Assembly (NCBI GenBank): GCA_903913285.1 | Contig: CAIWKO010000068.1 | Coordinates: 62,001 to 126,000 of the forward strand | Length of the DNA stretch: 64,000 bases | Origin: an uncultured Bacteroidales bacterium | GTDB taxonomy: Bacteria; Bacteroidota; Bacteroidia; Bacteroidales; CAIWKO01 | Reading direction: 5' to 3' | In this document: positions 8,475 through 62,087 of the stretch, one piece after another | Layout of the letters: the number at the start of each line of letters is the position of its first letter | How positions within the stretch are numbered: position 1 is the stretch's first letter | Made by a program: the position numbers and the translations under genes | The notes under the pieces: model-generated | The model's input: the letters and a program-made list of their open reading frames with translations, nothing else | Told to the model about the DNA's origin: nothing | Databases searched by the model: none

Positions 8475-8520
8475 CCGTATAAATTACCTTACCCCGTATA
8501 TTTATATTTGATATCTCACT

Positions 8521-8528: not shown

Positions 8529-8569
8529 CAAAATTTAATAAATCAACACTCAATATTTCTTTCAATAAA

Positions 8570-8594: not shown

Positions 8595-8640
8595 ATGTTG
8601 TTCGAAGTTGTATACTTTGAACAAGGGGGGGTATACCCTA

Positions 8641-10302: not shown

Positions 10303-10389
10303 AATGGTAGTTTTGTAATAGCCGATAAAATAGTCCTGCTTTCAGCCCATTTACAAATTTCTCTACATATTTGATGCATTTATAATTGA

Positions 10390-10460
10390 TTTCTCCCTCA
10401 AAATTACAAAATTTTATACATCAACATTCAATATTTTTTTCAATAAAAGAAGATGGCACG
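10390..10460 (-). repeat. Terminator-promoter composite repeat, copy B (hairpin lost)
   Basis: It shares the ATTGAA(T/G)GTTGAT...TTTGTAATTTTGAG block of copy A, but the GGGCG hairpin is replaced by unrelated sequence. The promoter element TAATTTTG lies at 10399-10406 on the minus strand, about 97 bases before the beta-helix gene start. Confidence 0.55.
10399..10406 (-). promoter_or_regulatory. Promoter -7 element TAATTTTG (beta-helix gene)
   Basis: An exact TAnnTTTG match inside composite repeat copy B, upstream of the beta-helix gene. Confidence 0.5.
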
Positions 10461-30936: not shown

Positions 30937-31251
30937 ATTTATAACCCGTCACGACGTTTTTATTACGCGTCACATCATTTTTATGACACGGCAGATTATT
31001 TTAATAACTCGGCAGGTGATTATTATGGCGCGGACCATCCTGTTTATGGCGCGGACCATCTTGTTTATGACGCGGACCACACTGTTTATGACGCGGACCA
31101 TCATGTTTATAACTCGGCCCATCTTGTTTATGACACGGCCCATCCTGTTTATGACGCGGCCCATCATGTTTATGACGCGGCCCATCATGTTTATAACGCG
31201 GCCCATTCGGAAAATGACACGGCCCGTCCTGTTTATGACGCGGCCCATCAG
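30937..31251. repeat. 21-bp tandem repeat, about 15 units
   Basis: Units of the form GTTTATGACGCGGACCATCNT start at 31042 and every 21 bases to 31231; weaker units extend upstream on the same phase to 30937. The tRAC(R)CGG core is best conserved and the last bases vary. Both strands remain open in several frames because of the period, but none shows a start signal or a known fold. Confidence 0.88.
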
Positions 31252-32461: not shown

Positions 32462-32926
32462 ATGTCAGAAACTAAAACCTTGATACAGGAATATATCGCG
32501 CTCAACGGCAAATCGCGCAACCAACTGTTGCCCCTGCTGCAAAACATTGTTCAGCATCAAAACTACCTCAGCGAAGAAGCCATGACGGAAGTGGCCCGAG
32601 CGATGGGATTATCGCCGGCAGATGTATACGGAACCGCCAGCTTTTATTCGTACCTGAGCACCGTGCCGCGCGGAAAATACGTGATACGCCTTTGTCGCAA
32701 CATTTCGTGCATGATGAAATCGCAGGCCGAGATACTGAGCGCCGTGAGTGCACACCTGAAAATTAAAGTGGGCGAAACCACCTCCGACAAAAAGTTCTCG
32801 CTCGTGCAGGCCAATTGTTTGGGCTGGTGCCATAAAGCCCCCGCCATGATGATAAACAACGAAGTGTTCACCGAACTCACCGCACCGAAAGCCATCCAGA
32901 TCATAAACGAATACCAGCAAAAATAA
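32462..32926 (+). CDS. NuoE-like [2Fe-2S] subunit (locus 1)
   Basis: A 154-residue thioredoxin-fold electron carrier related to NuoE and to HydC/HndA of NAD(P)-linked hydrogenases. The N-terminal helical part has LPLLQNIVQHQNYLSEEAMT, the family signature YGTASFYSYLS follows, and the [2Fe-2S] ligands are intact: CRNISC (about 78-83) and CLGWC (about 118-122). It would pass electrons between the NuoF-like flavoprotein and the HydA-like subunit encoded immediately downstream (5-base gap). The paralogue at 50.6 kb is its counterpart in the canonical operon. Confidence 0.88.
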   Translation: MSETKTLIQEYIALNGKSRNQLLPLLQNIVQHQNYLSEEAMTEVARAMGLSPADVYGTASFYSYLSTVPRGKYVIRLCRNISCMMKSQAEILSAVSAHLKIKVGETTSDKKFSLVQANCLGWCHKAPAMMINNEVFTELTAPKAIQIINEYQQK

Positions 32927-32931
32927 GCGCT

Positions 32932-34098
32932 ATGGAATCACATGAATTGAAAAGGATAGATTTGATATTCAGTAACTATACCACCTCGAAATATAAGGTA
33001 TTGGAACGCACCCTGCAACGCGACCCCGACGAGATCATCAACGAGCTGATGGATTCGGGTTTGAAAGGCCGGGGCAACGCGGGTTTCCCCACGGGTTTGA
33101 AATGGAAATTCGCCCGCAGGAATGAAGCAGAAACGCATTACGTGATATGCAACGCCAACGAAAGCGAAACCGGAACCTTCAAAGATCGCGAGATACTGGA
33201 ACGCGTGCCGCGCAAAGTATTGTCGGGGATGGCCATTTGCGCATACTGTACAGGCGCCCGCAAAGGCATCATCTACCTGCGTCAGGAATATGCCTACATG
33301 ATGGAACATCTGCAAAACGAACTCAACATATTTCATCAGCATGTAAAAGAATTTAATTTCGATTTCACGGTAGAAATATTCCTCGGAAGCGGCAGCTACG
33401 TGAGCGGCGAAGAAAGCGCCATGCTCGATTCTATTGAAGGCTACCGCGCCGAACCGCGCAACAAACCACCCTATCCCATCACCAAAGGATTGTTCGATAT
33501 GCCCACCGTGGTGAACAACGTGGAAACCTTTGCCACGGCTCAGGTTATTTTCCGCATCGGAGCGGAAGAATACAGCAAGCTGGGCACACCGCTTTCGCCG
33601 GGCTCGAAGCTGTTCACCCTTTCGGGCGACACACCCAAACCCGGCATACACGAACTGGAACTGGGGATGACGTTGCAGGATTTCGTGAAAGAATTCGGCG
33701 ACAACAACACCAAGGCAGTTCAGGTGGGCGGTGCATCAGGTTATTGCATTCCGCAAAAACTCTTTGCCGAAACCGTGATAGGTTTCGAAGGCATCCCCAC
33801 GGGAGGTTCGATGATATTGTTCAACAACTCGCGCTCGATGTATAAAGTGCTGCACGAATACCTGCGTTTTTTCACCGAAGAATCGTGCGGATTGTGCACT
33901 CCCTGCCGCATCGGCACGCAACAACTGCTGAAAGGCGTTGAAGCCGTTAAAAAAGGCGAACGTCCCGTATCGTATATCGATGTGCTGATAAAACTGGCGC
34001 TGAGCATGAAAAGTTCGGCCAAATGCGGACTCGGGCAATCGGTTGCCAACCCTTTTATTTCAATTATCGATAATTTCAAAGAAGAAATTTTGTATTAA
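32932..34098 (+). CDS. NuoF-like FMN/[4Fe-4S] subunit, trimmed form (locus 1)
   Basis: A 388-residue flavoprotein related to NuoF/HydB. The FMN/NAD core begins GLKGRGNAGFPTGLKWKF, then has CNANESETGTFKDR where NuoF proteins usually show CNADExEPGTFKDR, so three residues of the nucleotide-site loop differ. An SLBB region and the [4Fe-4S] motif ESCGLCTPCRIG with a distal Cys (AKCGLGQ) are intact. Compared with the 643-residue paralogue at 51.0 kb it lacks the N-terminal thioredoxin-like domain and the C-terminal two-cluster ferredoxin domain. NAD binding is plausible but unproven. Confidence 0.85.
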   Translation: MESHELKRIDLIFSNYTTSKYKVLERTLQRDPDEIINELMDSGLKGRGNAGFPTGLKWKFARRNEAETHYVICNANESETGTFKDREILERVPRKVLSGMAICAYCTGARKGIIYLRQEYAYMMEHLQNELNIFHQHVKEFNFDFTVEIFLGSGSYVSGEESAMLDSIEGYRAEPRNKPPYPITKGLFDMPTVVNNVETFATAQVIFRIGAEEYSKLGTPLSPGSKLFTLSGDTPKPGIHELELGMTLQDFVKEFGDNNTKAVQVGGASGYCIPQKLFAETVIGFEGIPTGGSMILFNNSRSMYKVLHEYLRFFTEESCGLCTPCRIGTQQLLKGVEAVKKGERPVSYIDVLIKLALSMKSSAKCGLGQSVANPFISIIDNFKEEILY

Positions 34099-34110
34099 AC
34101 CGTCATTTTC

Positions 34111-35886
34111 ATGGAAAAATATCAGGTAAGTTTAACCATAAATAATATTCCCGTAACAGTTGAAGAAGGTTCAACCGTGCTGGATGCCGCCCGAAAAGTA
34201 AATCTTCATATTCCCACCTTGTGCAATCATCCCGATTTGAAAGTGGCAGGCAATTGCCGCGTATGCGTGGTAGAGATCAAAGGGCAGAAAGAACTTTCGG
34301 CAGCCTGTGCCACTCCCGCCACGGAAGATATGGAAGTGTTCACCAACAGCCGCAGAGTGCGCACTGCACGCAAGAACATCGTTGAACTGCTGCTTTCGGA
34401 ACACAATGCCGACTGCACCAAATGCTACCGCAACGGCAACTGCGAACTGCAATGGCTGGCCAGCGAATACCGCATCGGCGACCACGTGTTTCACGATCTG
34501 GTGAAAGAACAGGAAAAAATTCCCGACACCTCGTCGTGGAGCCTGATAAAAGACGACAGCAAATGCATACGCTGCCAGCGATGCGTCAGAACCTGCAACG
34601 ACCTGCAGGATGTGGGAACGTTTTCGGTCATCAAAAAAGGGAAGAGACAAAAGGTGTCCACCTTTTTGAGCAAACCGCTGAAAGAAGTGTTCTGTATAGA
34701 TTGCGGACAGTGCATAGTGCGATGCCCCACGGCGGCGCTCAGCGAAAAGGCCAACTACGAAGAAGTGTGGGATGTATTGGAAACCGGCAAACATGTGGTG
34801 ATAAGCACCACTCCTGCCGTTAGGGCGGCCATTGGCGAAGAACTGGGTTTTGAATATAACAAACACTCCGACCTGAAAATAGTTACGGCGCTCAAATTAA
34901 TGGGGTTTAACTCCGTGGTGGATTATGGATTTTTCACCGACATCTATATCGTGGAACTGTGCACAGAGTTTTTGTTGCGCATGAAACAAGCGCAGGCCAA
35001 CGAAGGCTCAGCGAAGATGCCACTGATAAGTTCGGGTTCGCCGGGCTGGGTGAAATATGCCGCAGAGAAACATCCCGAACTGGCCGGAAACCTGTCGGAT
35101 TGCAAATCGCCTCACCAGATATTCGGAGCCGTGGTAAAATCGTTCTACGCCGACAAAAAAGCCCTGGACCCGAAAAAGATAATCACCGTTTCGGTTTCGC
35201 CCTGCACGGCAGCCAAGGCCGAATCGGCCAACCCCAAAATGGAAGTGAACGGACTGAAAGATGTTGATTTCACCATCACCACCCGCGAACTGGCCCGCAT
35301 GATACGCCAATCGGGCATCGACATTGAACGCCTGCCCGAAACGGATTACGACAACCTGACACAAATTCACAGCGGGGCATCGGTGCTCACCGAACTCTCG
35401 GGCGGCACCACCGAAGCGCTTATACGCACCTTATATGAACTGATAACCGGAAACGAACTCACACCCGAACTTTTGAAAATTATGCCGCTGCGCGGACAGA
35501 ACGGAATAAAAGAAACGGTGATGAAGTTTACGGATGTGAGAGCCGACTGGGATTTTCTGGAAGGAAAAGAACTGCGCTTTGCCGTGGTGAACGGCACAGG
35601 AAATGCCGCCAAATTTTTCGGCACGCTGCCCGAAAAAGAATATCATTTTGTGGAAGTGATGGCCTGCGCCGGAGGATGCATAGGCGGCGGCGGGCAACCT
35701 ATACCCGTTTCGGCCGAACTGGTGAAGGCACGCTCTTCAATTCTATATTCGCTGGACGAGATAAACGGGGTGAAAAAATCGCACGACAACAGCGCCCTGC
35801 AGGATATTTTCCGCGAGTTCCTGAAACAACCCGGCAGCGAGAAGGCGAAGGAGATACTGTATAAGGAAGTGCCTAAAGTGAACTAA
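34111..35886 (+). CDS. Divergent [FeFe]-hydrogenase-like subunit with altered H-cluster site (locus 1)
   Basis: A 591-residue HydA homologue. Accessory domains look intact: [2Fe-2S] with C38, C49, C52 and C66; a His/Cys cluster region (HNADCTKCYRNGNCELQ); and two [4Fe-4S] motifs (CIRCQRCVRTC, CIDCGQCIVRC). The H-cluster domain is not canonical. Motif L1, normally TSCCPxW, reads SSGSPGW (307-313), replacing both the proton-relay and one cubane cysteine. L2 is SPCTAAK (363-369), lacking the Met and Lys of MPCTxKK. L3 (C519, C523 in MACAGGCIGGGGQ) is intact. Leu283 replaces the proton-path glutamate. A non-hydrogenase or regulatory role is likely. Confidence 0.85.
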   Translation: MEKYQVSLTINNIPVTVEEGSTVLDAARKVNLHIPTLCNHPDLKVAGNCRVCVVEIKGQKELSAACATPATEDMEVFTNSRRVRTARKNIVELLLSEHNADCTKCYRNGNCELQWLASEYRIGDHVFHDLVKEQEKIPDTSSWSLIKDDSKCIRCQRCVRTCNDLQDVGTFSVIKKGKRQKVSTFLSKPLKEVFCIDCGQCIVRCPTAALSEKANYEEVWDVLETGKHVVISTTPAVRAAIGEELGFEYNKHSDLKIVTALKLMGFNSVVDYGFFTDIYIVELCTEFLLRMKQAQANEGSAKMPLISSGSPGWVKYAAEKHPELAGNLSDCKSPHQIFGAVVKSFYADKKALDPKKIITVSVSPCTAAKAESANPKMEVNGLKDVDFTITTRELARMIRQSGIDIERLPETDYDNLTQIHSGASVLTELSGGTTEALIRTLYELITGNELTPELLKIMPLRGQNGIKETVMKFTDVRADWDFLEGKELRFAVVNGTGNAAKFFGTLPEKEYHFVEVMACAGGCIGGGGQPIPVSAELVKARSSILYSLDEINGVKKSHDNSALQDIFREFLKQPGSEKAKEILYKEVPKVN

Positions 35887-35909
35887 AATACTTAAAGTGC
35901 CTAAAGTAG

Positions 35910-35929
35910 GGACACGACATGTCGTGTCC
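35910..35929. repeat. Perfect 20-bp palindrome
   Basis: GGACACGACATGTCGTGTCC lies between the HydA-like gene and the DUF2141 gene, flanked on the left by AAAGTGCCTAAAGT-type short repeats. It has no loop, so it is more like an extragenic palindrome or protein site than a terminator. Confidence 0.6.
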
Positions 35930-35985
35930 TTTAATAATTTTCAGAATTCAGAATACCTTGTAATAATTTCTAAAACAAAATTAAC

Positions 35986-36447
35986 ATGAAAAAACTATGG
36001 ATCGCACTATTGCTGCTGATTCCTTTTTGGGGTGCAACAGCTCAGGTAAAAACCACACCTGCTACCACCGAAACCGGCACACTGAAAGTGCTAGTGAAAG
36101 GTTTTAAAAATACCGACGGCCAACTGATGATCGCTTTGTATAATACTGAAGGCACCTATATGGGCGAAAAAACATTCCGAAGCAGCTATTCGGAAATAGA
36201 TGCAGGTGAAGAACTCATCACATTCGATAATTTGCCGTACGGCAATTATGCATTGGCTGTAATACACGACGAAAACAACGATGGCAAACTGGATAAGAAC
36301 GATTTTGGCATACCTAAAGAAGGCTACGGTTTTTCGAACGACGCCATGGGAAAATACGGCCCGCCAACCTGGATGCAGGCAAGCTTTGTGCTGAACGAAA
36401 AAGAATTGACCAAGCTGATAAATCTGCAATACGGGATACCGGAATAA
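35986..36447 (+). CDS. DUF2141 secreted protein
   Basis: A 153-residue protein with a signal peptide (about 1-20, ending GATAQ) and a single DUF2141 beta-sandwich: LKVLVKGFKNTDGQLMIALY, then LPYGNYALAVIHDENNDGKL, then FGIPKEGYGFSNDAMG. The DENNDGKLDKNDFG segment is rich in acidic residues and may bind calcium. Function unknown; probably periplasmic. No strong promoter was seen. Confidence 0.85.
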   Translation: MKKLWIALLLLIPFWGATAQVKTTPATTETGTLKVLVKGFKNTDGQLMIALYNTEGTYMGEKTFRSSYSEIDAGEELITFDNLPYGNYALAVIHDENNDGKLDKNDFGIPKEGYGFSNDAMGKYGPPTWMQASFVLNEKELTKLINLQYGIPE

Positions 36448-36560: not shown

Positions 36561-36848
36561 GAATTTCGTTGCGGAGAGTAATTTACAGTCAACTATGGTC
36601 TGGTTTTCTTGACAGGGAGTAATTGACCATCAACGACGCTTTGGTTTTCTTGGCAGAAGGTAGTTGACCGTCAACGACGCTTTGGTTTTCTTGGCAGAAG
36701 GTAGTTGACCGTCAACGACGGTCTGGTTTTCTTGGCAGAGGGTAGTTGACCGTCAACGACGCTTTGGTTTTCTTGGCAGAGGGTAGTTGACCGTCAACGA
36801 CGGTCTGGTTTTCTTGACAGGGAGCCGTGGACCTTATTTGACGGGCTT
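36561..36848. repeat. 41-bp tandem repeat with internal inverted repeat
   Basis: GGTTTTCTTG(G/A)CAG starts at 36602, 36643, 36684, 36725, 36766 and 36807, each 41 bases apart, with a degenerate unit before. Four of the intervals contain GTTGACCGTCAAC, an inverted repeat of GTTGAC around one base. Units are nearly identical and there are no variable spacers, so this is not a CRISPR. Confidence 0.85.
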
Positions 36849-38632: not shown

Positions 38633-39538
38633 TCATTTATTCTCTTTCAGCCATTGATACCATTGCTGCATGCCCTCACCTGTTTTCACCGAAACTTCGA
38701 AGAACACAAGATGATGATTCACGCTTAAAGCATATTCTTTGGCTTTGGCAACACTAAAATCGACATAAGGAAGCAGATCGGTTTTATTGATAATACAAAT
38801 GTCGGCCGAATGAAACATGGTCGGGTATTTTATCGGTTTATCGTCGCCTTCTGTGACACTTATAACAACAACCCTTTTAGCTTCGCCCAAATCGAACAAG
38901 GAAGGACACACAAGATTTCCGACGTTTTCGATAAACAAAACTGAATCATTAGCCACCTCCAATTGCTTTACAGCTTTGTTCACCATTTCGGCATCCAGAT
39001 GGCATCCGTTTCCGGTGTTGATCTGAATTACCGGAACTTTTAAAGCAGCAATACGGTTTGCATCGTTCATGGTTTGCTGATCACCTTCAACAACATAGAA
39101 ATTTAACTCACTGCCCAGTTCTTTGATCGTACGTTCGAGCAAACTTGTTTTCCCCGAGCCTGGCGAACTCACAAGATTTAGTGCAAAAACATTTTTAGCT
39201 TCAAAATATCCACGGTTACGTTCGGCCAAGGCATTATTTTTATTGAGGATATCGTGCTCGATCTTTATCTCTTTTCCATGCGGGTGATCGTGTTCTTTTT
39301 CGTGGGTATGGTGTTCATGAGCATGGTCGTGTTCGTGGTCATGGTCGTGATGAGAATGTTCGTGCGAATACTCATGCTTATGATCGTGAGCATGTTTGTC
39401 AGTATCGTGCTGATGATCGTGGTCGTGAGTATAGGAATGAGTGTGGCCGTGCCCGTGATCATGATCGTGGGTATGTTCTTCGCCGGGTTTGTTATAAGTT
39501 ATTTTAGAATCGCCTTCGCAGCCGCAAGTATCACACAT
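38633..39538 (-). CDS. hypB: Hydrogenase/urease nickel incorporation GTPase HypB
   Basis: The 301-residue protein is the GTPase of nickel insertion. An N-terminal CDTCGCEGD metal motif is followed by a long histidine-rich stretch to about residue 90 (dozens of His, runs of HDHDHxH). The GTPase domain has Walker A SSPGSGKTSLLERT (about 127-140), the metal-binding GNGCHLD, VCPSLFDLGE, and NKTDLLPY for guanine recognition. HypA lies 40 bases upstream on the same strand. No [NiFe] hydrogenase or urease gene is present in the window. Confidence 0.95.
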   Translation of the reverse strand: MCDTCGCEGDSKITYNKPGEEHTHDHDHGHGHTHSYTHDHDHQHDTDKHAHDHKHEYSHEHSHHDHDHEHDHAHEHHTHEKEHDHPHGKEIKIEHDILNKNNALAERNRGYFEAKNVFALNLVSSPGSGKTSLLERTIKELGSELNFYVVEGDQQTMNDANRIAALKVPVIQINTGNGCHLDAEMVNKAVKQLEVANDSVLFIENVGNLVCPSLFDLGEAKRVVVISVTEGDDKPIKYPTMFHSADICIINKTDLLPYVDFSVAKAKEYALSVNHHLVFFEVSVKTGEGMQQWYQWLKENK

Positions 39539-39578
39539 AAATGTTCTTTTTAGTTTTGACTTGCAAAATTACAATAAA

Positions 39579-39920
39579 TCAGTCGATGAAGATCGATTTA
39601 ATGCGTAATTCTTTACCGGCGATGATTTCAAAATCCATTGACAGGCATTTCGGACAGGGAGTATACCAGTCGCTGTTGCTGAACTCATTGCCGCATTTGT
39701 TGCATTTCGATTTACCTTCTATTGAAGTAATAACAAACTCAGCACGTTCTAAAACAGTTTCTTTCACGGCGAGTTCCATGGCGAAGTTCAAGCTGTCTAT
39801 AACAATACCTGAAAGTTCTCCTACCTCAATTTCGATCTTCGAAATATGTGAACCTTTATTTTTGGTCACAAATTCCTCAGCAATTTCGATAATATTTGTT
39901 GCGATAGAAAGTTCGTGCAT
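39579..39920 (-). CDS. hypA: Nickel metallochaperone HypA
   Basis: A 113-residue protein with the nickel-binding N-terminus MHELSIA and the zinc site CNKCGNEFSNSDWYTPCPKC, two CxxC pairs as in all HypA. It delivers nickel to [NiFe] hydrogenase together with HypB, encoded next. Promoter TATTTTTG at 39928-39935 lies only 8 bases before the start, so the leader is almost absent. It is divergent from the histidine kinase gene. Confidence 0.95.
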   Translation of the reverse strand: MHELSIATNIIEIAEEFVTKNKGSHISKIEIEVGELSGIVIDSLNFAMELAVKETVLERAEFVITSIEGKSKCNKCGNEFSNSDWYTPCPKCLSMDFEIIAGKELRIKSIFID

Positions 39921-50558: not shown

Positions 50559-51029
50559 ATGAAAACGACACTAGATAACATACTAAAAAACTACGACAAT
50601 AGCGGCCGGGACGCATTGATCCCGCTATTACAGGAAATTCAGGAAAATGAAGGCTTTCTATCGGAAAAATCGATAGTGATGACCGGAAAAAAACTCAATA
50701 TTCCTACCAGCAAGATCTATGGAGTTGCTACATTTTATAATCAATTCAGGTTTGAACCCACCGGAAAATATCATATACAGGTATGCAGAGGAACCGCGTG
50801 CCATGTATTGGGTTCGGCCACCGTATTGCAGGAATTAGAATCATATTTAAAAGTAAAATCAGGACAGACAACACGCGACGGGTTTTTCAGTATAGAAGTT
50901 GTTGCTTGTATCGGAGCGTGTGGTCTGGCACCTGTTATTTGTATAAACGGCGAATTTTACGCGAATGTTACCGCCGACTCTATTAAAACTATTATTGATA
51001 CGTACCGCGCAAAAGAACAAGAACTATGA
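50559..51029 (+). CDS. hydC: NADH-dependent [FeFe] hydrogenase, NuoE/HydC-like subunit
   Basis: A 156-residue [2Fe-2S] thioredoxin-like subunit. It has the family opening IPLLQEIQENEGFLSEKSIV and YGVATFYNQFRFEPTGKY, with the four ligands in CRGTAC (about 77-82) and CIGAC (about 118-122). It carries electrons between NAD(H)-reactive NuoF and HydA in HydABC-type enzymes. Its stop overlaps the NuoF start (ATGA), so translation is coupled. It is similar to, but clearly distinct from, the locus 1 paralogue at 32.5 kb. Confidence 0.92.
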   Translation: MKTTLDNILKNYDNSGRDALIPLLQEIQENEGFLSEKSIVMTGKKLNIPTSKIYGVATFYNQFRFEPTGKYHIQVCRGTACHVLGSATVLQELESYLKVKSGQTTRDGFFSIEVVACIGACGLAPVICINGEFYANVTADSIKTIIDTYRAKEQEL

Positions 51030-52957
51030 TACCAAAATCAAACATCACTGCTCAGGAATATCTTGAAGAATTAAGCAAAGGTTTGGCAACGGGTGTAATG
51101 CCTCATGTGGAAGATCTTAGAAAAGAGCAGCACAAAACCATCATTTTTATCGGCGCAGGAACCTGCGGCTTGGGTGCAGGAGCAGGAAAGACAAAAACTG
51201 CCGTTGAAACCTATTTAACCGAAAAAAACATAGATGCAGAAATTATTGAAGTCGGTTGTATTGGATTTTGTACTGCCGAACCTATAGTTGATATACAGTT
51301 GCCCGAAAAGAACCGTATTTCTTTTTCGAAAGTAACTTCCGATAAAGTTGACAGCTTACTGGATGACGTTTTTGCAGGAAAAACCGAAGGACATGAAGTT
51401 CTCGGTCAGTTCCGGAACAACGGTCACGAATCGTGGGCAGGAGTTCCCGAAATATTTAACCATCCTTTCTTTATTAAACAAAAACGTATCGTTCTTCAAA
51501 ACTGCGGCATTATTGACCCTGTGAGCATCGATGAATATATATCGAAAGGCGGCTACAGCAGTTTGATACAGGTGTTGAAGAAGTTTTCGTCGGATGAAGT
51601 TATTACAGCCATCGAAAAAAGCGGTTTACGCGGCAGAGGCGGTGGCGGTTTCCCGACCGGAATGAAATGGAGACTGGCTTACAAAACCCCGAGCGACCAA
51701 AAATACATGATATGCAACGCCGACGAAGGCGACCCCGGTGCTTTTATGGACCGCGCTGTGATTGAAGGCGACCCGCATCGTTTGCTCGAAGGTTTGGCAA
51801 TAGGTTCGTATGCAGTTGGAGCTTCGGTAGCTTACATTTATATTCGGGCAGAATACCCGCTAGCTATCAAACGTTTGAAAATTGCTATCAAACAAGCCGA
51901 AGATTATGGTTTGCTTGGTCATAACATATTTGGTTCGGGCTTCGACCTGAAAATTAAGATAAAAATGGGTGCAGGCGCTTTTGTTTGCGGCGAAGAAACT
52001 GCTTTGATGCACAGCATTGAAGGTTATCGCGGCATGCCGAGTCCCCGTCCGCCTTTCCCTTCGGAAAGCGGTTTGTTTGGAAAACCCAGTGTGATCAATA
52101 ATGTTGAAACATACTCCAATGTTCCCGACATTATCCAAAAAGGCTGGGAATGGTATAGCGCCATAGGAACCGAAAGAAGCAAAGGCACCAAGGTGTTTGC
52201 TTTGTCGGGCAACGTGAAAAACACAGGACTGGTCGAAATACCGATGGGAACCACCATACGTGAGATCATTTTTGGCATAGCCGGTGGCATACGAAACGAT
52301 AAAAAATTTAAAGCAGTTCAGATTGGCGGCCCATCGGGCGGCTGCATCACCGAACAAAACCTCGATATAGAGATCGATTATCAAAACCTGATAGCTGTTG
52401 GCGCCATGATGGGCTCGGGCGGATTGGTTGTAATGGACGAAGACACCTGCATGGTGGATATTGCCAAGTTCTTTATGGATTTTATTCAGCGCGAAAGCTG
52501 CGGAAAATGCATCCCGTGCAGAGAAGGTACCAAACGTATGCTGGAGATATTGCAAAACATTACTTCAAAACCTCAAAACAGCAATGGCAACCAGGCACTG
52601 GAACGTTTCAAAGGTGTGATGCAGCTTGAGAAACTCGGACAGATCATCAAGGAAACTTCCCTGTGCGGATTGGGTCAATCGGCACCAAATCCTGTACTCA
52701 GCACCCTACGCTATTTCCGTCACGAATATGAGGCCCATATTTTTGAACGGGTGTGTCCGGCTAATAAATGTACCGAACTACGCAAATTCAAGATCCTTGT
52801 TGATAAATGCACGGGTTGTATGGTTTGCAGCAAAAAATGCCCGACAGGAGCTATTATCGGAAGCAAAAAAGAACCTCATTTTATTGTTGATAATAAATGT
52901 ATCGGCTGCGGTTCGTGCCAGGAAGCATGCAAATTTGAAGCTATTGAAATGATTTAA
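51026..52957 (+). CDS. hydB: NADH-dependent [FeFe] hydrogenase, NuoF/HydB-like subunit
   Basis: A 643-residue subunit in four domains. The N-terminal thioredoxin-like domain (about 33-100, GTCGLGAGAGKT and CIGFC) has only one cysteine in its first half. The FMN/NAD core follows (GLRGRGGGGFPTGMKWRLAY and CNADEGDPGAFMDR), then SLBB and [4Fe-4S] (ESCGKCIPCREGT, SLCGLGQ). A C-terminal ferredoxin domain has CTGCMVCSKKCPTGA and CIGCGSCQEACKFEA. This is the architecture of HydB in electron-bifurcating hydrogenases, so coupling of NADH and ferredoxin is possible; bifurcation is an inference. Confidence 0.93.
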   Translation: MIPKSNITAQEYLEELSKGLATGVMPHVEDLRKEQHKTIIFIGAGTCGLGAGAGKTKTAVETYLTEKNIDAEIIEVGCIGFCTAEPIVDIQLPEKNRISFSKVTSDKVDSLLDDVFAGKTEGHEVLGQFRNNGHESWAGVPEIFNHPFFIKQKRIVLQNCGIIDPVSIDEYISKGGYSSLIQVLKKFSSDEVITAIEKSGLRGRGGGGFPTGMKWRLAYKTPSDQKYMICNADEGDPGAFMDRAVIEGDPHRLLEGLAIGSYAVGASVAYIYIRAEYPLAIKRLKIAIKQAEDYGLLGHNIFGSGFDLKIKIKMGAGAFVCGEETALMHSIEGYRGMPSPRPPFPSESGLFGKPSVINNVETYSNVPDIIQKGWEWYSAIGTERSKGTKVFALSGNVKNTGLVEIPMGTTIREIIFGIAGGIRNDKKFKAVQIGGPSGGCITEQNLDIEIDYQNLIAVGAMMGSGGLVVMDEDTCMVDIAKFFMDFIQRESCGKCIPCREGTKRMLEILQNITSKPQNSNGNQALERFKGVMQLEKLGQIIKETSLCGLGQSAPNPVLSTLRYFRHEYEAHIFERVCPANKCTELRKFKILVDKCTGCMVCSKKCPTGAIIGSKKEPHFIVDNKCIGCGSCQEACKFEAIEMI

Positions 52958-52970
52958 AAAATACTGAACT

Positions 52971-54695
52971 ATGAGCTTAACTATAGATATAAACGGAAAA
53001 TCCTACGAAGCTTTTGAAAGCGAAACCATACTTACGGTATTGAATCGTAATGGAATTAAAGTTCCGACACTGTGTAACATGAAAGATTTTATACCCACGG
53101 GTGCATGTCGCATCTGTGTGGTGGAAATTGAAGGCAACCCAAAACTGGTGAGTTCCTGTTCATTTCCTGTCAGTAACGGGATGAAGATACACACACATTC
53201 GCCCCGGGTGGTTGAAGCCAGAAAGACCATTGTTGAACTGCTTTTATCAAATCATCCGGACGATTGTCTGTTTTGTGTGCGCAACTCAAATTGCGAACTT
53301 CAAAACCTGGCAAAAGAATATCATGTGGTGGAACGCCGCATACATGGTGTGAAGAACAATCATAAGATAGATTTCTCCAGTCTGAGTATAGTCCGCGACC
53401 CGGATAAATGTATATTATGCGGTCGTTGTGTTCGCGTTTGCGAAGAAACCATGGGCGTGGCCTGCATTGAATATATCAATCGCGGCAGCAAAACCGTGAT
53501 TGGAACTACCATGCAAAAAGGTCTGAACACATCGAGTTGTGTGAATTGCGGACAATGTATCATGGTTTGCCCAACGGGAGCCTTATCAGAACGCAATCAA
53601 ACATCGTTGGTTCAGGAAGCCCTTGGCCAGAAAGATAAAATTGTGGTTGCCCAATACGCACCTTCTATTTCGGTATCTATTGCCGAAGAATTCGGAATAA
53701 AACCCGGAAAAGATATCAACGGAGCTTTGAATGCTGCTTTACGCAAAATGGGATTCAACTTTGTTTTTGATACAACATTCGGTGCCGACCTTACCATTAT
53801 GGAAGAAGCTTCGGAATTGATAGACCGTATCACCAAAGGGAAGACCCTTCCGATGTTCACCAGCTGCTGCCCTGCCTGGGTTAAGTATGCTGAAGAATTC
53901 GCACCCGATTTTCTCGATAATCTTTCTTCGTGCAAATCGCCGCAACAAATGACAGGCGCTATCATTAAAAGCTATTTTGCCGACAAGATAAACGTGAAAC
54001 CCGAAAACATCATATCGGTTTCTATCATGCCCTGCACTGCCAAAAAGTTTGAAGCACAACGCGATACCATGGGAAGAAATGGGATCAATGATGTTGATAT
54101 AGTGATTTCAACACGTGAATTAATCGAATTAATTAAACTCTACGGAATCGACATCAATAATATACAGGCTGAACTAACGGATTCACCATTAGGAGTTAGA
54201 AGTTCGGCAGGAAAGATATTCGGAGCAACAGGCGGAGTGATGGAAGCTGCCCTGAGAACCGCTTATAAAAAACTTACCGGAACAGAACTAACGAATTTCA
54301 AGATATCTGCTGTCAGGGGTTTTGCAGGCCGCAAAGAAACCAAGATCAATATTAACGGGTTGGAAATTGGAGTTGCTGTGGTAAGCGGGTTGGCAAATGC
54401 CGCCATACTTTTAGAAGAAATCAGGAATGGCAAAAACGATGTTCATTTTATTGAAGTGATGACATGCCCCAGAGGATGTATCGCAGGCGGCGGTCAGCGC
54501 ATCGGCGCTTCCGAATCGATTATTGAAGCCCGTATGCAATCGCTCTATAAGATCGATGATACGGAAACCTTGAAAGTATCACATAAAAACCCTGAGGTGA
54601 TAGAATTATACACCAATTTCCTCGGAGAACCTCTGCAACATAGGAGCCACGAATTGCTTCATACAAAATATTCGAAACGGGATGTATTACTGTAA
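52971..54695 (+). CDS. hydA: [FeFe] hydrogenase catalytic subunit HydA, canonical
   Basis: A 574-residue enzyme that interconverts protons and H2. It has an N-terminal [2Fe-2S] domain (LCNMKDF and CRICVVEIEG), a His/Cys-ligated cluster (HPDDCLFCVRNSNCELQ), two [4Fe-4S] clusters (CILCGRCVRVC, CVNCGQCIMVC), then the H-domain with FTSCCPAW (C299, C300), MPCTAKKFE (M353, C355, K358) and VMTCPRGCIAGGGQ (C499, C503), plus LTIMEEASEL for the proton path. Length and cysteine numbers coincide with those reported for C. pasteurianus CpI. It is the catalytic partner of the NuoE and NuoF subunits upstream. Confidence 0.96.
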   Translation: MSLTIDINGKSYEAFESETILTVLNRNGIKVPTLCNMKDFIPTGACRICVVEIEGNPKLVSSCSFPVSNGMKIHTHSPRVVEARKTIVELLLSNHPDDCLFCVRNSNCELQNLAKEYHVVERRIHGVKNNHKIDFSSLSIVRDPDKCILCGRCVRVCEETMGVACIEYINRGSKTVIGTTMQKGLNTSSCVNCGQCIMVCPTGALSERNQTSLVQEALGQKDKIVVAQYAPSISVSIAEEFGIKPGKDINGALNAALRKMGFNFVFDTTFGADLTIMEEASELIDRITKGKTLPMFTSCCPAWVKYAEEFAPDFLDNLSSCKSPQQMTGAIIKSYFADKINVKPENIISVSIMPCTAKKFEAQRDTMGRNGINDVDIVISTRELIELIKLYGIDINNIQAELTDSPLGVRSSAGKIFGATGGVMEAALRTAYKKLTGTELTNFKISAVRGFAGRKETKININGLEIGVAVVSGLANAAILLEEIRNGKNDVHFIEVMTCPRGCIAGGGQRIGASESIIEARMQSLYKIDDTETLKVSHKNPEVIELYTNFLGEPLQHRSHELLHTKYSKRDVLL

Positions 54696-54732
54696 TCAAC
54701 AAATTTATTAAACAAAGCTAAAATCTAAAAAA

Positions 54733-56721
54733 ATGGGCAATCTGATAAATAACGAACTAGTTTACACGGTGAAAGACCGGTGCCGGGTTTGTTATACCTG
54801 TGTCAGAGAGTGTCCTGTAAAAGCCATCAAGATCGTCAACGGTCAGGCTGAAGTTATTTCCGAACGTTGTATCGGATGCGGAAACTGTACGAAAGTATGC
54901 AGCCAGAAAGCCAAATCATTTATTGATACGACGCCGCAGGTTTATGATTATTTAAATAGCGGTGAGAAAATTGTAGCATGTGTTGCTCCAAGTTTCCCGG
55001 CCGAGTTTTCGGAAATTGAGGATTACAAATTGTTCATCGGTATGTTGCGTAAGCTGGGGTTTACCTATGTGGTTGAAGTGGGTTTTGGAGCCGATATTGT
55101 TGCAAAAGAGTACAAGAAAACAATAGACGATCCGAATTCGAAAAAATTCATCTCTTCCGATTGCCCTGCAATTGCTTATTATGTCAGACACTATCATCCT
55201 GAGCTTATTGAATATCTTGCTCCTATTGTTTCGCCCATGGTTGCCATGGTTAGGATCATTAAACACAAATACGGTAAGGACTTAAAAACGGTATTTATCG
55301 GACCTTGCATTGCAAAAAAGGCAGAATCGTCGGAAGTTGACCAGGTGATCACTTTTGCTGAATTACGCAATATGTTCAATAATGCCAATATCACATCAGA
55401 TAACACAACTCCTTCTGAATTTGATCCGCCCATTGCCGGAAAAGCTTCTATTTTTCCCGTAACCCGCGGCAAATTACACTCCATAAACAAATCGGATGAT
55501 ATTTGTGATGAAAACATAATCGTAGCTTCAGGCCGGATACATTTTCGCGAAGCGATCAAGGAATTTGAAGAAGGGCTCAACAAGTCGCAACATCTTGAAC
55601 TGCTTTGCTGCGAAGGTTGCATTATGGGACCTGGAATGACCAATAGTAATAAGATCTTTACCAAAACTACGCATATTCGGAATTACGTCCGAAATAAACT
55701 TTTGAATTTTGATACGGCAGCATGGAAAATAGAATATGATGCCGTTAAAGACATGGATTTCTCACAAACATTTTCATCTGCCGACCGTCGTATTCCAATT
55801 CCTTCGCCCGAAAAAATAACTCAGGTGCTGGAATCCATCGGCAAGTTCAATTTGTCTGACCATTTGAATTGCGGAGCCTGCGGTTATGATACCTGTATTG
55901 AACACGCCATCGCAATAGTGGAAGGTCTTGCCGAAACCGAAATGTGCTTACCTTATACCATAGAAAAATTACATAACTCTGTAAAAGACCTCAATTTATC
56001 TAACGAAAAACTCGCCAGTGCTCAACAATCACTAAAACAGTCGGAAAAACTGGCTACAATGGGACAACTTTCAGCAGGGATTGCTCACGAACTAAACAAT
56101 CCACTGGGAATTATAACTATGTACAGCAATATACTCAAAGACGAAGCACCTGCTGATAGTCCCGTTCATAAAGATCTGGAATTGATCGTTGAGCAGGCAA
56201 ACCGCTGTAAAAAAATTGTTGGTGGTTTATTGAACTTTGCACGTAAAAATCAGGTTAACCTGATTGAAACCGATATCTTTAAATTTACTCAACACAGCAT
56301 CGATTCTATTATTGCTCCTGAAAACGTCACTATCGAACTTAAATCTACTTTAACAAACCCCTACGCTTATATTGATAACGACCAATGGATGCAAGTTCTG
56401 ACAAATATTGAAAAGAACGCTATTGAAGCGATGCCGAACGGAGGTAAACTTACTTTGGAACTCAACGAAACGAACGGCGATGTTGAATTTTGCATCGGCG
56501 ATACGGGTGTCGGGATCTCAAAAGAAAATATGGATAAAATATTCACACCTTTCTTTACCACAAAACCTATAGGAAAAGGAACCGGATTAGGATTACCATT
56601 GATCTACGGCATTGTTAAAATGCACAACGGCCAGATCAGTGTTGATTCAAATGCAGGAGAAGAAGCCGGACCTACAGGAACTGCATTCAGAATTAAAATA
56701 CCAAGAACTAAAAATCTTTAA
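54733..56721 (+). CDS. HydA-like sensory domain fused to histidine kinase
   Basis: A 662-residue soluble protein. Two [4Fe-4S] motifs (CRVCYTCVREC, CIGCGNCTKVC) are followed by a [FeFe]-hydrogenase-like domain. It keeps cubane-type cysteines C144, C192, C292 and C296, but has Asp143 where HydA has the proton-relay cysteine (SSDCPAI) and Gly190 where HydA has Met (GPCIAKK; Lys195 kept). Next come an Fe-S domain with CGACGYDTC (about 377-385), a coiled coil, HisKA with H452 in IAHELNNPLGI, and an HATPase (DTGVGIS and GTGLGLPLI). It is probably a hydrogen or redox sensor signalling by phosphorylation. Confidence 0.9.
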   Translation: MGNLINNELVYTVKDRCRVCYTCVRECPVKAIKIVNGQAEVISERCIGCGNCTKVCSQKAKSFIDTTPQVYDYLNSGEKIVACVAPSFPAEFSEIEDYKLFIGMLRKLGFTYVVEVGFGADIVAKEYKKTIDDPNSKKFISSDCPAIAYYVRHYHPELIEYLAPIVSPMVAMVRIIKHKYGKDLKTVFIGPCIAKKAESSEVDQVITFAELRNMFNNANITSDNTTPSEFDPPIAGKASIFPVTRGKLHSINKSDDICDENIIVASGRIHFREAIKEFEEGLNKSQHLELLCCEGCIMGPGMTNSNKIFTKTTHIRNYVRNKLLNFDTAAWKIEYDAVKDMDFSQTFSSADRRIPIPSPEKITQVLESIGKFNLSDHLNCGACGYDTCIEHAIAIVEGLAETEMCLPYTIEKLHNSVKDLNLSNEKLASAQQSLKQSEKLATMGQLSAGIAHELNNPLGIITMYSNILKDEAPADSPVHKDLELIVEQANRCKKIVGGLLNFARKNQVNLIETDIFKFTQHSIDSIIAPENVTIELKSTLTNPYAYIDNDQWMQVLTNIEKNAIEAMPNGGKLTLELNETNGDVEFCIGDTGVGISKENMDKIFTPFFTTKPIGKGTGLGLPLIYGIVKMHNGQISVDSNAGEEAGPTGTAFRIKIPRTKNL

Positions 56722-56730
56722 AAATATACT

Positions 56731-57129: not shown

Positions 57130-57139
57130 GTCTCGAATT

Positions 57140-58289: not shown

Positions 58290-59717
58290 ATGAAATTCAC
58301 TCCCGAAACATACAACATTCCTGACATACCGATGCAACCGTTTATTGATGCAAATGAGATCGATGCGATTATTGAACATACTGTTTCCACTCCCGAAGCA
58401 GTAAGGGCGGTCATAGCAAAATCTCTATCAAAAAAACGACTCAGCTTAAGGGAAACAGCTATTTTGATCAACACCAACGATCCGGTTTTGGTTGCCGAGA
58501 TTAAAGAAGGCGCCAAAGAACTTAAAAAAAGGATCTACGGCAACCGCATTGTTTTATTTGCACCACTGTATATAGGGAATAAATGCTCGAATAATTGCAC
58601 TTATTGCGGATTCAGAGCTTCAAATGCCGACGCAAAACGGGTAACATTAACCGACGATGAGATCGTTCATGAAATAGAATCACTCGAAGATCACGGACAA
58701 AAAAGGCTTATACTTGTTTATGGCGAACATGCGTTATACAATCCCGAATACATTGCACACACTGTAAAACTTGCTTATTCCGTAAAGAAAAATCATGGTG
58801 AGATCAGGCGGGTGAACATCAATGCTGCTCCTCTGGACATCGAAGGATTCAAGATCGTAAAAGAAGCCAATATCGGAACATTTCAGGTCTTTCAGGAAAC
58901 CTATCATCCCGAAGCATACAAGACCTACCATTTAAGAGGGAAAAAAGCCGATTACGGCTATCGCCTCACAGCACTCGATCGCGCTCAGGAAGCAGGTATC
59001 GATGATGTAGGCATCGGTGCATTGTTTGGATTATACGACTGGCGTTTCGAAGTAATGGCATTGGTACGTCACACCAATCATCTCGAAGCATGCTATAACG
59101 TAGGTCCACATACCATATCGTTTCCTCGTGTTAAAGATGCTTCCATGCTGGGTATGGGTGAAAAATATTTTGTGAATGACGAAGACTTTGCAAAGATCGT
59201 TGCTATACTTCGACTGGCAGTTCCATACACTGGTATGATATTGACAGCCCGGGAGCCTGTGCAGGTTCGCAACGAATTATTGCAATACGGAGTTTCGCAG
59301 ATCGACGGCGGCACAAAACTAGAACTCGGCAGTTATGCAAAAAAAGATATAAGTGAACAGGACCTGAATAAGGGCCAGTTTCGTATCAACGACAGTCGTA
59401 CGTTACACGAGATCATTTCCGAACTCATTGACCAGAACATGTTGCCTTCATTTTGCACGGCTTGTTATAGACTGGGACGGACGGGAGAACATTTTATGGA
59501 GTTTTCGGTCCCCGGGTTTATCAAACGTTTTTGTACACCCAATGCCATTTTAACTTTGGCAGAATATCTAGCTGACTATGGACAGGAACCCAACATAACA
59601 AAAGGCCGGGCATTGATAGACAAAGAACTTGACGCTTTAGAAGACAGAACTATAGTTATTGAGATCAAAAAAAGAATTGAAGAAATTAATAACGGAAAAA
59701 GAGATTTATATTTTTAA
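58290..59717 (+). CDS. hydG: H-cluster maturase HydG (radical SAM tyrosine lyase)
   Basis: HydG cleaves tyrosine to make the CO and CN- ligands of the H-cluster. The 475-residue protein is full length. The radical SAM [4Fe-4S] motif is CSNNCTYC (CX3CX2C, about 93-100), followed by RLILVYGEH. The C-terminal auxiliary cluster site is CTACYRLGRTGEHFMEF with a third Cys in FIKRFC (a CX2CX22C pattern), as expected of HydG and not of ThiH. It lies between the kinase gene and hydF, 19 bases after the former. Confidence 0.95.
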   Translation: MKFTPETYNIPDIPMQPFIDANEIDAIIEHTVSTPEAVRAVIAKSLSKKRLSLRETAILINTNDPVLVAEIKEGAKELKKRIYGNRIVLFAPLYIGNKCSNNCTYCGFRASNADAKRVTLTDDEIVHEIESLEDHGQKRLILVYGEHALYNPEYIAHTVKLAYSVKKNHGEIRRVNINAAPLDIEGFKIVKEANIGTFQVFQETYHPEAYKTYHLRGKKADYGYRLTALDRAQEAGIDDVGIGALFGLYDWRFEVMALVRHTNHLEACYNVGPHTISFPRVKDASMLGMGEKYFVNDEDFAKIVAILRLAVPYTGMILTAREPVQVRNELLQYGVSQIDGGTKLELGSYAKKDISEQDLNKGQFRINDSRTLHEIISELIDQNMLPSFCTACYRLGRTGEHFMEFSVPGFIKRFCTPNAILTLAEYLADYGQEPNITKGRALIDKELDALEDRTIVIEIKKRIEEINNGKRDLYF

Positions 59718-59756
59718 ATAATTAAAATCAATAGCCAATCGCTAATCATTATCATC

Positions 59757-60974
59757 ATGGACAAAGGCAGAGATCTTAAACCCCACATCGGCATCTTCGG
59801 AAGAAGAAACAACGGTAAAAGCTCGTTCATCAATGTGTTGGTCGGGCAAGAAGTGGCAATCGTTTCCGAACAGGCAGGCACCACCACCGATCCTGTGAAG
59901 AAATCCATCGAAATATTCGGTATCGGTCCGGTTATTATGGTCGATACTGCCGGCATCGATGATTCCGGCGAACTCGGGAAAAAACGAGTGGATAAAACCA
60001 TGCAGGTATTGAAAACCATTGATTGTGCCGTTCTCATTCTTGCTAATAACGTTTTTGGCGATTACGAAATTGATCTGATACGCGAATTCAACAGTTTCGC
60101 AATTCCTTTTATCTTAATTCACAACAAGTCGGATATTATTCCCATTTTAAAAGCCACTAAAGCTGAGATCGGTAAAACAACCCAAACTGAGATCATCGAT
60201 TTCAGCACCATCACACCGCATAATCTCGACTATGTTGTTGAATCTCTAAAAAAAACAATTCCTCAAACTGCATACGTCAGCAAATCGCTGATCGGCGATA
60301 TTGTGAAGAAAGGCGATTATGTATTGCTCGTCACTCCCATCGATTCCGAAGCTCCCGAAGGACGCATGATACTTCCGCAAACCATGGCCATACGCGATGT
60401 GCTGGACAATCATTGCATCTGCATTGTGCTGCGTGAAACCGAACTCACTCATTTCTTCGAAACCTGCAACACAAAGCCCAAACTGGTTATTACCGACAGT
60501 CAGGCATTCGGCAAGGTGAAGGACTTGGTACCAGAAGATATCATGCTCACCGGGTTTAGCATCGTTTTTTCACGTTTGAAAGGCGACTTTGAAAACTTTA
60601 TTAAAGGAGCACAAAAAATATCTGCGCTGAAAGACGGTGACAAAGTGATCATCATGGAATCGTGCACGCATCGCGTCAGCTGCGAAGATATAGGGCGTTT
60701 TAAACTCCCCGCATGGATCAAAAAATATACGGGCAAAGACATTGACTTCACTATAATTTCGGGAATGAGCGATCTACCTGAAAACATTAAAGATTATTCA
60801 CTATTAATTCAGTGCGGAGGCTGCATGTTCACCCGTAAACAAATATTGAACAGACTGAAGCCATTCACAGATAATGCTGTTTCCATAACGAACTACGGGA
60901 TGGCTATTGCTTTTATGAACGGAATATTTGAGCGGGCACTGCAGCCTTTTTTTATCAACTCTGAAACATCCTGA
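59757..60974 (+). CDS. hydF: H-cluster maturation GTPase HydF
   Basis: HydF is the scaffold that delivers the diiron precursor to HydA. The 405-residue protein has a GTPase domain (G1 GRRNNGKSSF near 14-23, G2/G3 with GTTTDPV and DTAGID, G4 HNKSD) and a C-terminal cluster-binding region: CTHRVSCEDIGR, and CGGCMFT about 50 residues later, the CxH...CGGC ligand set of HydF. Lies between hydG and hydE. Confidence 0.95.
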   Translation: MDKGRDLKPHIGIFGRRNNGKSSFINVLVGQEVAIVSEQAGTTTDPVKKSIEIFGIGPVIMVDTAGIDDSGELGKKRVDKTMQVLKTIDCAVLILANNVFGDYEIDLIREFNSFAIPFILIHNKSDIIPILKATKAEIGKTTQTEIIDFSTITPHNLDYVVESLKKTIPQTAYVSKSLIGDIVKKGDYVLLVTPIDSEAPEGRMILPQTMAIRDVLDNHCICIVLRETELTHFFETCNTKPKLVITDSQAFGKVKDLVPEDIMLTGFSIVFSRLKGDFENFIKGAQKISALKDGDKVIIMESCTHRVSCEDIGRFKLPAWIKKYTGKDIDFTIISGMSDLPENIKDYSLLIQCGGCMFTRKQILNRLKPFTDNAVSITNYGMAIAFMNGIFERALQPFFINSETS

Positions 60975-60995
60975 TTCAGGACAAAACAGCATAAG

Positions 60996-62087
60996 ATGAT
61001 ATACGACTTTGAACAAATATTGAAAAGCGAACTCGGATCCGAGATGGTGAAATATTTGTTATCGCTCGACGACGAAGCTGCCGCAAAACAACTTTTCGCA
61101 AAAGCACGCGAAACCCGCGACGCTGTGATCGGCAACAAAGTTTATCTGAGAGGATTGATCGAATTATCGAACCGTTGTTCCAAAAACTGCTACTATTGCG
61201 GCATTCGTTCGGGAAACAAAAATGTTATCCGATATGATATACCCGACGATGAAGTGCTGAAAGCCGCTGAATTTGCTTTGCAAAACAACTATGCCTCTAT
61301 CGTCATTCAATCGGGCGAACTGAATGATAAAACCTTTACCAAACGTGTTACTTCATTACTGCAAAAGATCGGTAATCTTACACAAAACCAACTGCACATT
61401 ACACTTTCGTGCGGAGAACAAAGCCCCGATGTTTACCGCCAGTGGTTCGACAATGGTGCGCAACGCTATCTGCTACGTATCGAAACTTCCAGCGAAAGTT
61501 TATACTATAAGATACACCCCAACAATCCGAAGCATAATTTCACCCACAGGCTCAATGCTCTCGAATCATTAAAAGGTATAGGATACCAAACCGGAACAGG
61601 AATTATGATAGGTTTGCCCTACCAAACATTTGATGACTTGACTAACGATCTGTTCTTTTTCAAAGATTTCGGCATCCACATGGTAGGTATGGGGCCTTAT
61701 ATTGAACATCCTGACACACCGCTTGCAAAATTCAGCAAGATCATGCTTCCCTTGCAGCAACGATTGGAATTAACCCTCAAAATGATCGCTCTTTTGCGTT
61801 TACTCATGCCCGACATTAACATCGCTTCCACCACAGCCCTGCAAACCATCGACCCATTGGGACGCGAAAAAGGTATTGCTGCCGGTGCCAACGTAATTAT
61901 GCCCAACATCACCCCCGTGAAATACAAAGAAAACTACAACCTCTATGAAGGCAAACCCTGCCTCGACGAAGAACCCGATCAGTGCACCACTTGTATTGAT
62001 ATGCGTGTGAAACTTGCCGGAGGCGAAGTAGCCTACGACCAATGGGGCGACTCAAAATTCTATAAAAGAAGTCAATCGAAACAATAA
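60996..62087 (+). CDS. hydE: H-cluster maturase HydE (radical SAM)
   Basis: HydE acts on the organometallic product of HydG to form the diiron centre. The 363-residue protein has the CX3CX2C radical SAM motif in RCSKNCYYCGIRSGN (about 63-70), GELNDKTF, then TLSCGEQSPDVYRQWFDNGA and GLPYQTFDDL, typical of HydE within the BioB-like radical SAM group. Last gene of the operon and 21 bases after hydF; convergent with the nitroreductase gene. Confidence 0.95.
   Translation: MIYDFEQILKSELGSEMVKYLLSLDDEAAAKQLFAKARETRDAVIGNKVYLRGLIELSNRCSKNCYYCGIRSGNKNVIRYDIPDDEVLKAAEFALQNNYASIVIQSGELNDKTFTKRVTSLLQKIGNLTQNQLHITLSCGEQSPDVYRQWFDNGAQRYLLRIETSSESLYYKIHPNNPKHNFTHRLNALESLKGIGYQTGTGIMIGLPYQTFDDLTNDLFFFKDFGIHMVGMGPYIEHPDTPLAKFSKIMLPLQQRLELTLKMIALLRLLMPDINIASTTALQTIDPLGREKGIAAGANVIMPNITPVKYKENYNLYEGKPCLDEEPDQCTTCIDMRVKLAGGEVAYDQWGDSKFYKRSQSKQ

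Follow-up and report, generated by a model that had tools for sequence, protein, structure and literature searches.

The described systems closest to the locus reported here are the NADH-dependent, non-bifurcating hydrogenases of the Syntrophomonas wolfei Hyd1ABC type, which have a short HydB and are represented by the group A6 model NF040763. An operon in the genome of an uncultured Bacteroidales bacterium, within a stretch of 64,000 nucleotides (hereafter the window), shares with this type its subunits, its cluster ligands, the short HydB and the fold of HydA, and its HydA-like protein descends directly from such a family. It differs from that type in that the L1 and L2 motifs are broken, the [2Fe] pocket is rewritten and the profile scores fall below the curated cut-offs.

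Several other systems are similar in part. HydA1 of A. woodii is an active enzyme. Its sequence (PDB 7q4v) reads TSCSPGW at L1, with the same Ser at the position of CpI C300 and the same other cubane ligands; unlike the protein described here, it keeps C299, M353, K358 and E279. Melainabacteria ACD20, compared through its description in the available text of PMC3787301, is reported to have two HydA with TSCSPGW in which a motif-3 Cys is also replaced by Ile. The sensory groups C and D (TmHydS, TamHydS) have likewise lost C299 and replaced M353 with a small or hydroxyl residue. In comparison with these, the HydA-like protein has no PAS, kinase or C-terminal Fe-S domain (by Pfam, and no Cys follows C523), has lost more pocket residues and has kept HydB and HydC as partners.

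Two further systems have a HydA-type scaffold without the full cofactor. The eukaryotic Nar1/NARFL proteins likewise combine a HydA-type fold, a cubane site and the bridging Cys with loss of the [2Fe] unit, but they act in cytosolic Fe-S assembly in organisms without the maturases, whereas the operon here is NADH-linked, lies beside the HydE, HydF and HydG genes, and would represent a separate and recent loss. NiFe-HydABCSL, and Bfu with an H-cluster-less BfuA, are also HydABC scaffolds without an H-cluster, as set out in the accessible part of PMC9304861; they have a bifurcating HydB, whereas the present operon combines a short HydB with an H-domain that has been retained in rewritten form. 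In the open-licence literature, no description was found of a bacterial group of inactive or motif-poor HydA with the present combination.

Operon structure and genomic context

The source genome comprises 4.0 Mb in 70 contigs. Three of its proteins match the H-domain family, and the window encodes every one of them: the HydA-like protein, a canonical HydA and a HydS-like histidine kinase. The genes and sites concerned are as follows.

32462..32926, + strand: NuoE/HydC-like [2Fe-2S] subunit, 154 aa (Pfam PF01257; C78, C83, C119 and C123 retained)
32932..34098, + strand: short HydB/NuoF-like flavoprotein, 388 aa (Pfam PF01512 and PF10589 only)
34111..35886, + strand: HydA-like subunit with a rewritten H-domain, 591 aa (open frame of 591 codons)
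35908..35931, + strand: terminator-like hairpin of 10 pairs just 3' of the HydA-like stop codon, a possible operon end
50559..56721, + strand: intact paralogue operon of HydC, HydB (643 aa), HydA (TSCCP) and an H-domain histidine kinase (HydS-like)
52971-54695, + strand: canonical HydA (TSCCPAW, MPCTAKKFE, E at E279)
58290..62087, + strand: H-cluster maturases HydG, HydF and HydE, all above curated cut-offs

The HydA-like gene is the last of the operon at 32462-35886; the hairpin that follows it is weak evidence for an operon end, as 13 such sites occur in the region against a mean of 6.8 in shuffled sequence. The order NuoE-like, short HydB, HydA is found in all 30 relatives checked, in which HydB measures 385-393 aa. 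The possibility that the short HydB is a new trait, marking a remodelled operon, was rejected, since this form is that of the family in 30/30 relatives. The subunit comprises an FMN/NADH domain and the N3-type [4Fe-4S] ligands (C319, C322, C325 and C365), without the extensions that the 643-aa canonical paralogue carries at both termini, and it reads GGASG where the canonical HydB reads GGPSG. According to the text available from PMC9304861, homologues lacking the B2-B5 clusters in BfuB are non-bifurcating, and that of PMC7311640 treats GGPSG in HydB as a mark of putative bifurcating enzymes. A HydB of this form, in which B2-B5 are absent and the FMN/NADH domain and N3 are kept, suggests that the enzyme is NADH-linked and does not bifurcate.

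The partner subunits have also changed to some extent, with 14 of 139 family-invariant columns altered in HydB and 3 of 28 in HydC, against maxima of 9 and 3 in other members. The HydB changes include flavin/NADH-loop positions (G49N, D76N, C158S). The NADH side may accordingly be altered as well, and NADH is the presumed donor.

The initial annotation had reported a canonical paralogue in the same window, and the motifs of the HydA at 52971-54695 confirm it. As HydE, HydF and HydG are encoded in the window, the [2Fe] unit should be available in the cell. Between the canonical hydA and hydG, at 54733-58270, lie the gene of the HydS-like H-domain/histidine kinase (54733-56721), a response regulator gene and a second histidine kinase gene, which possibly constitute an H2- or redox-sensing relay. 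On the minus strand at 38633-39920, 2.7-4 kb downstream of the HydA-like gene, are found hypA and a hypB whose product begins with a long His-rich stretch; other contigs of the genome carry two genes for [NiFe] hydrogenase large subunits. Two repeat arrays were also observed. A 41-base tandem repeat is present six times at 36574-36820, with the hairpin GACCGTCAACGACGGTC in at least two copies, between the genes at 35986-36447 and 37014, and approximately 14 copies of a 21-base repeat (TTTATGACGCGGCCCATCATG), with several frames open, are present upstream of the operon at 30959-31250.

Active site of the HydA-like protein

CpI numbering was transferred through a phmmer alignment, in which the query number equals that of CpI +4 before the insertion, +10 around L1 and L2, and +20 near L3. 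The reference set of 75 homologues consists of 74 fetched rows and the canonical paralogue of the window, and the second species in the list below belongs to the same genus.

34957..34959, + strand: L283, equivalent to CpI E279 (proton path); E in 75/75 homologues
35035..35037, + strand: G309, equivalent to CpI C299 (proton relay); C in 75/75 homologues
35038..35040, + strand: S310, equivalent to CpI C300 (cubane ligand); Ser throughout the family, 48/48
35113..35115, + strand: H335, equivalent to CpI Q325; Q in 71/75 homologues
35197..35199, + strand: S363, equivalent to CpI M353; M in 69/75 homologues, T in the second species
35212..35214, + strand: A368, equivalent to CpI K358; 63 K and 12 N among 75 homologues, A in the second species
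35389..35394, + strand: T427-E428, equivalent to CpI F417-G418; T-E in the second species
35665..35679, + strand: retained L3 cubane ligands C519 and C523 (the bridging Cys) in EVMACAGGCIGGGGQP

The three motifs of the protein thus read SSGSPGW (L1), SPCTAAKAE (L2) and EVMACAGGCIGGGGQP (L3). This agrees with the initial annotation as regards SSGSPGW, the changes E279L, C299G, M353S and K358A, the presence of C355, C499 and C503 as C365, C519 and C523, and the loss of the proton-relay Cys, a residue without exception among the homologues. Further altered pocket positions had been overlooked, namely CpI A230T, 268Y, A272T, Q325H, F417T and G418E, and the equivalents of CpI P231, P324, M497, E282, R286 and S319 are kept. 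Which of the altered or kept positions contact the cofactor is presumed from work on CpI, and the equivalents of K358, Q325 and A230 are taken here to be the residues that hydrogen-bond the [2Fe] unit. Support for roles of C299, M353 and M497 near the cofactor is given in the portions available of PMC8163306 and PMC10055695. As read from the alignment, both the [2Fe] pocket and the proton entry are dismantled in the HydA-like protein, largely through polar replacements.

Single altered states recur in relatives that retain C299: M353S, K358N and F417T together in one homologue (L061), M353T in another (L074), and Q325H in three rows. Asn is present at CpI K358 in 12 of the 75 homologues (L061-L069, L071, L072 and L076), with C299, C300 and E279 intact; these all come from Bacteroidetes metagenome-assembled genomes, titled Bacteroidales, Sphingobacteriia or Bacteroidetes. 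Because K358 is naturally replaced in these proteins, its loss alone is not decisive.

The claim that one cubane ligand (C300) had been lost is not upheld. This site is Ser in all 48 aligned close relatives, each of which has Cys at C299 (TSCSPGW), and is divided between 38 Ser and 37 Cys among the 75 homologues; A. woodii HydA1 has Ser at the same position. The change to Ser was accordingly rejected as a lesion. It had also been proposed that relatives restoring TSCCPxW would count against the earlier reading; the Cys at C299 is restored, as TSCSPGW, and that at C300 is not. To judge from the alignment, the cubane ligand set of the HydA-like protein (Ser, Cys, Cys, Cys) is that of its intact sisters. 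Since Ser is typical of the family, no difference in cubane stability from these sisters is expected.

Distribution of changes and class membership

None of the 16 accessory Fe-S ligands (15 Cys and H98) is missing, and they match the intact family, so the annotated integrity of these motifs, which provide the ligands for one [2Fe-2S] and three [4Fe-4S] clusters, is supported. The proportion of altered positions was assessed at columns conserved in at least 47 of the 48 close relatives. Within the electron-transfer part it is 3/65, made up of 1/39 for residues 1-145 and 2/26 for residues 146-225; in the H-domain it rises to 42/122, and in the small-subunit-like tail to 11/21. Mean identity to the family, compared with that within the family, is 0.647 against 0.663 for residues 1-145, 0.576 against 0.727 for residues 146-225, 0.463-0.464 against 0.743 for the H-domain and 0.311 against 0.688 for the tail. 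This regional clustering is more than chance would give, and both measures sustain the earlier proposal that changes concentrate in the H-domain and spare the electron-transfer part. At the fully invariant HydA columns of 30 full operons, 55 of 205 are altered in the HydA-like protein; leaving out each other member in turn gave at most 8, with a median of 1. The end branch for the H-domain is 1.20, whereas none of the 48 family rows exceeds 0.35 (median 0.13). For the N-terminal part (residues 1-225) it is 0.45, against at most 0.51 (median 0.12), which implies that the electron-transfer half has also evolved fast, but inside the family range.

An AlphaFold2 model built from 45 sequences has a mean pLDDT of 88.8 and Foldseek TM-scores of 0.90-0.91 to CpI and to the HydA of T. 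kivui and A. woodii; the H-domain fold is thus predicted to be kept. The profile scores of the HydA-like protein are below both curated cut-offs, at 662.9 for NF040763 (cut-off 765) and 365.6 for TIGR02512 (cut-off 405.95); the canonical paralogue passes both, and the HydA-like protein passes Pfam PF02906. With respect to group A, the L1 signature TSCCPxW or TSCSPxW is replaced by SSGSPGW, and SPCTAAKAE departs from the L2 definition MPCxxKxxE found in the available text of PMC6085437. The L3 signature ExMACxxGCxxGGGxP is present, and descent and fold both place the protein in the group, though the H-domain tree alone disagrees. G309 and S363 are as in sensory groups C and D, in which the residues hydrogen-bonding the [2Fe] unit are conserved; here these are changed (K358A, Q325H, A230T). 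Nar1-like proteins are eukaryotic CIA factors with a C-terminal Trp, whereas this protein belongs to a bacterial operon with HydB and HydC and ends in VPKVN.

Phylogeny, a second species and selection

In a full-length tree, the HydA-like protein and a fragment from a second species of the same genus (genome G002) group together (100%) and are nested in the family of 48 close relatives aligned for comparison (98% SH-aLRT). A tree of the N-terminal part alone likewise places the protein inside the family (96% SH-aLRT). In the H-domain-only tree it falls outside the family, among the remaining rows (95% SH-aLRT), on the longest, and very long, branch, as would follow from a swap in which the H-domain was acquired from another, unsampled HydA lineage; the retention of 3 of 8 family-typical H-domain columns could be read in the same way. 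However, in the H-domain the protein most resembles the family (mean identity 0.464, maximum 0.505, against 0.409 and 0.467 outside it), and the family-specific insert positions 296, 451-452 and 482-483 are filled, all of which are gaps in 19/19 outside rows. A swap, rejected on these inserts and identities, is therefore extremely improbable. Because of the same identity and five insert positions, the position in the H-domain tree looks like long-branch attraction.

The fragment in the second species (G002:C126) is 224 aa long, lies at a contig end, corresponds to residue 361 onwards and is 62-64% identical to the window protein. It has M353T, K358A, F417T, G418E, T420S, V423T and M424T, and keeps C365, C519 and C523. 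Of the conserved columns in the overlap, 24 are altered in the two species, a further 3 in the window protein alone and 5 in G002 alone, and both species read TE-x-SGGTTEA where the family has IFGATGGVMEA. As the fragment begins after L1, the loss of L1 is known from one genome only. The two species agree at 15 of the 24 doubly altered columns (62%), against 126 of 197 elsewhere (64%); as this is no higher than elsewhere, the new states show no unusual degree of conservation.

Between the two species, dN is 0.298 and dS 1.40 (near saturation), giving a dN/dS of approximately 0.2, so that purifying selection has acted since the species split; divergence is 0.245 at first and second codon positions (p12) and 0.518 at third positions (p3). 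The corresponding dN for canonical HydA is 0.117, so the HydA-like protein has evolved about 2.5 times faster. A pseudogene was rejected, given an open frame in two species and this dN/dS. The suggestion of the initial annotation that the protein was repurposed rather than decaying fits a second species that shares most of the rewriting under purifying selection.

At E <= 1e-60, 239 of the 393 genomes of the order match (every HydA type counted), and among the matches listed only the window's own exceeds 55% identity; these matches stay above the score range of fragments, that of G002 is not among them and others are possible. Searches of the class and phylum at E <= 1e-205 (395 + 395 genomes, overlapping the order search), a threshold that also misses fragments, returned the window's own genome only. 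A genome-contig scan gave no row above 52% identity, in a collection from which records very near the window's genome may be absent. No third case of the rewriting was seen in those searches, which fragments could escape. Homologues of the genes at 37014 and 37865 lie together in genomes G001 and G003, with the operon absent on the stretches read; in G002, the fragment shares one contig with homologues of the genes at 37865 and 42093. A further locus in G001, a genus member without H-domain matches (L178, contig C13, approximately 7470-10430), encodes a NuoE-like protein, a HydB-like protein and an 896-aa frame including a HydA-like Fe-S part, and is possibly a bifurcating formate dehydrogenase or similar.

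Interpretation and alternatives

The best reading of these sequences is a pseudo-hydrogenase version of an NADH-linked HydABC, present in two species of one genus, with the L1 change in one of them. The operon at 32462-35886 probably encodes a soluble, non-bifurcating complex of this type, with a cubane-only site in a polar pocket, in which the [2Fe] subsite is no longer built or used; our confidence in this is moderate. Its ancestor would be an ordinary NADH-dependent [FeFe] hydrogenase of the Bacteroidales. Electrons from NADH would reach the H-domain [4Fe-4S], an empty polar cavity would lie beside that cluster where the diiron unit is otherwise bound, and some small substrate that is neither H+ nor H2 would be reduced there, or in reverse oxidised, leaving H2 chemistry to the canonical HydABC of the window. 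More tentatively, and as a proposal we would rate somewhat below even chances, the protein could be the founding example of a bacterial NADH-coupled oxidoreductase derived from an [FeFe] hydrogenase, in which only the [2Fe] pocket was erased, the Ser-ligated cubane and polar cavity became a new catalytic site for a non-H2 substrate, and the whole electron-transfer chain was reused. Against the pseudo-hydrogenase reading stand the retention of the E282, R286, S319 and M497 equivalents, the maturases in the window, and an evolution faster than that of canonical HydA, as relaxed constraint would give. In prototypical enzymes, replacement of C299 by anything except Asp abolishes all or most activity, according to the available text of PMC10055695. 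The accessible parts of two other papers conjecture that a Chlorella protein with ASACPGW is a working hydrogenase (PMC11011570) and report hydrogenase activity for Nar1 homologues produced under anaerobic conditions in E. coli (PMC12621388); hence loss of activity is not readable from L1 alone.

There is an appreciable, if minor, chance, to which these reports contribute, that the H-cluster is complete and turns over slowly. As in sensory groups C and D, the protein would then sense H2, here in an NADH-linked manner, or act as a slow hydrogenase with a bias. Group C/D enzymes without C299 and with Gly, Ser or Thr at M353 still bind the [2Fe] unit, as the available portions of PMC8163306 and PMC10055695 state; the window protein has Ser at M353 and the second species Thr, the maturases are present, and the bridging Cys (C523) and M497 are kept. 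However, the sensory enzymes conserve the residues that hydrogen-bond [2Fe] (same portion of PMC10055695), and the equivalents of K358, Q325, A230 and F417 are gone here, and PAS, kinase and C-terminal Fe-S domains are absent; the argument from K358 is softened by the 12/75 homologues with K358N and an intact C299. A redox relay or structural pseudo-enzyme, in which the H-domain [4Fe-4S] passes NADH electrons to a protein partner such as ferredoxin or another enzyme, is consistent with the retention of all relay ligands. It has precedents, within the available text of each source, in the HydA of NiFe-HydABCSL, which has no H-cluster (PMC9304861), and in eukaryotic Nar1, which keeps the cubane site and not [2Fe] (PMC12621388), and the [NiFe] hydrogenase genes elsewhere in the genome and the hypA and hypB genes downstream could supply a context. 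But the operon includes no additional gene for a partner, a buried cubane pocket would make a poor docking site, and a specific pocket stretch, TE-x-SGGTTEA, is kept in both species; such a relay is consequently judged unlikely. The early decay of a redundant hydrogenase is more improbable still. The intact HydABC in the same genome, the faster evolution than the paralogue, altered columns kept no better than others between the species, and the other two genus genomes (96% and 81% complete), which have no H-domain match at E <= 1e-10, would all suit it. An open frame in two species at approximately 63% identity with a dN/dS of about 0.21, 3 changes in 65 conserved N-terminal columns and the retention of the partner subunits argue against it.

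Loss of [2Fe] from a HydA fold is already known in eukaryotic Nar1, where the partners are gone. Here, the putative loss occurred recently, in a single genus that falls within a large family of intact-looking enzymes, and the partners, the maturases and an intact paralogue are all encoded in the window. It would therefore be a natural experiment on the residues required by the [2Fe] subsite as well as on the way in which a hydrogenase scaffold may gain new chemistry. It also means that a homology-based call of a Bacteroidales HydABC operon as H2-producing can be wrong.
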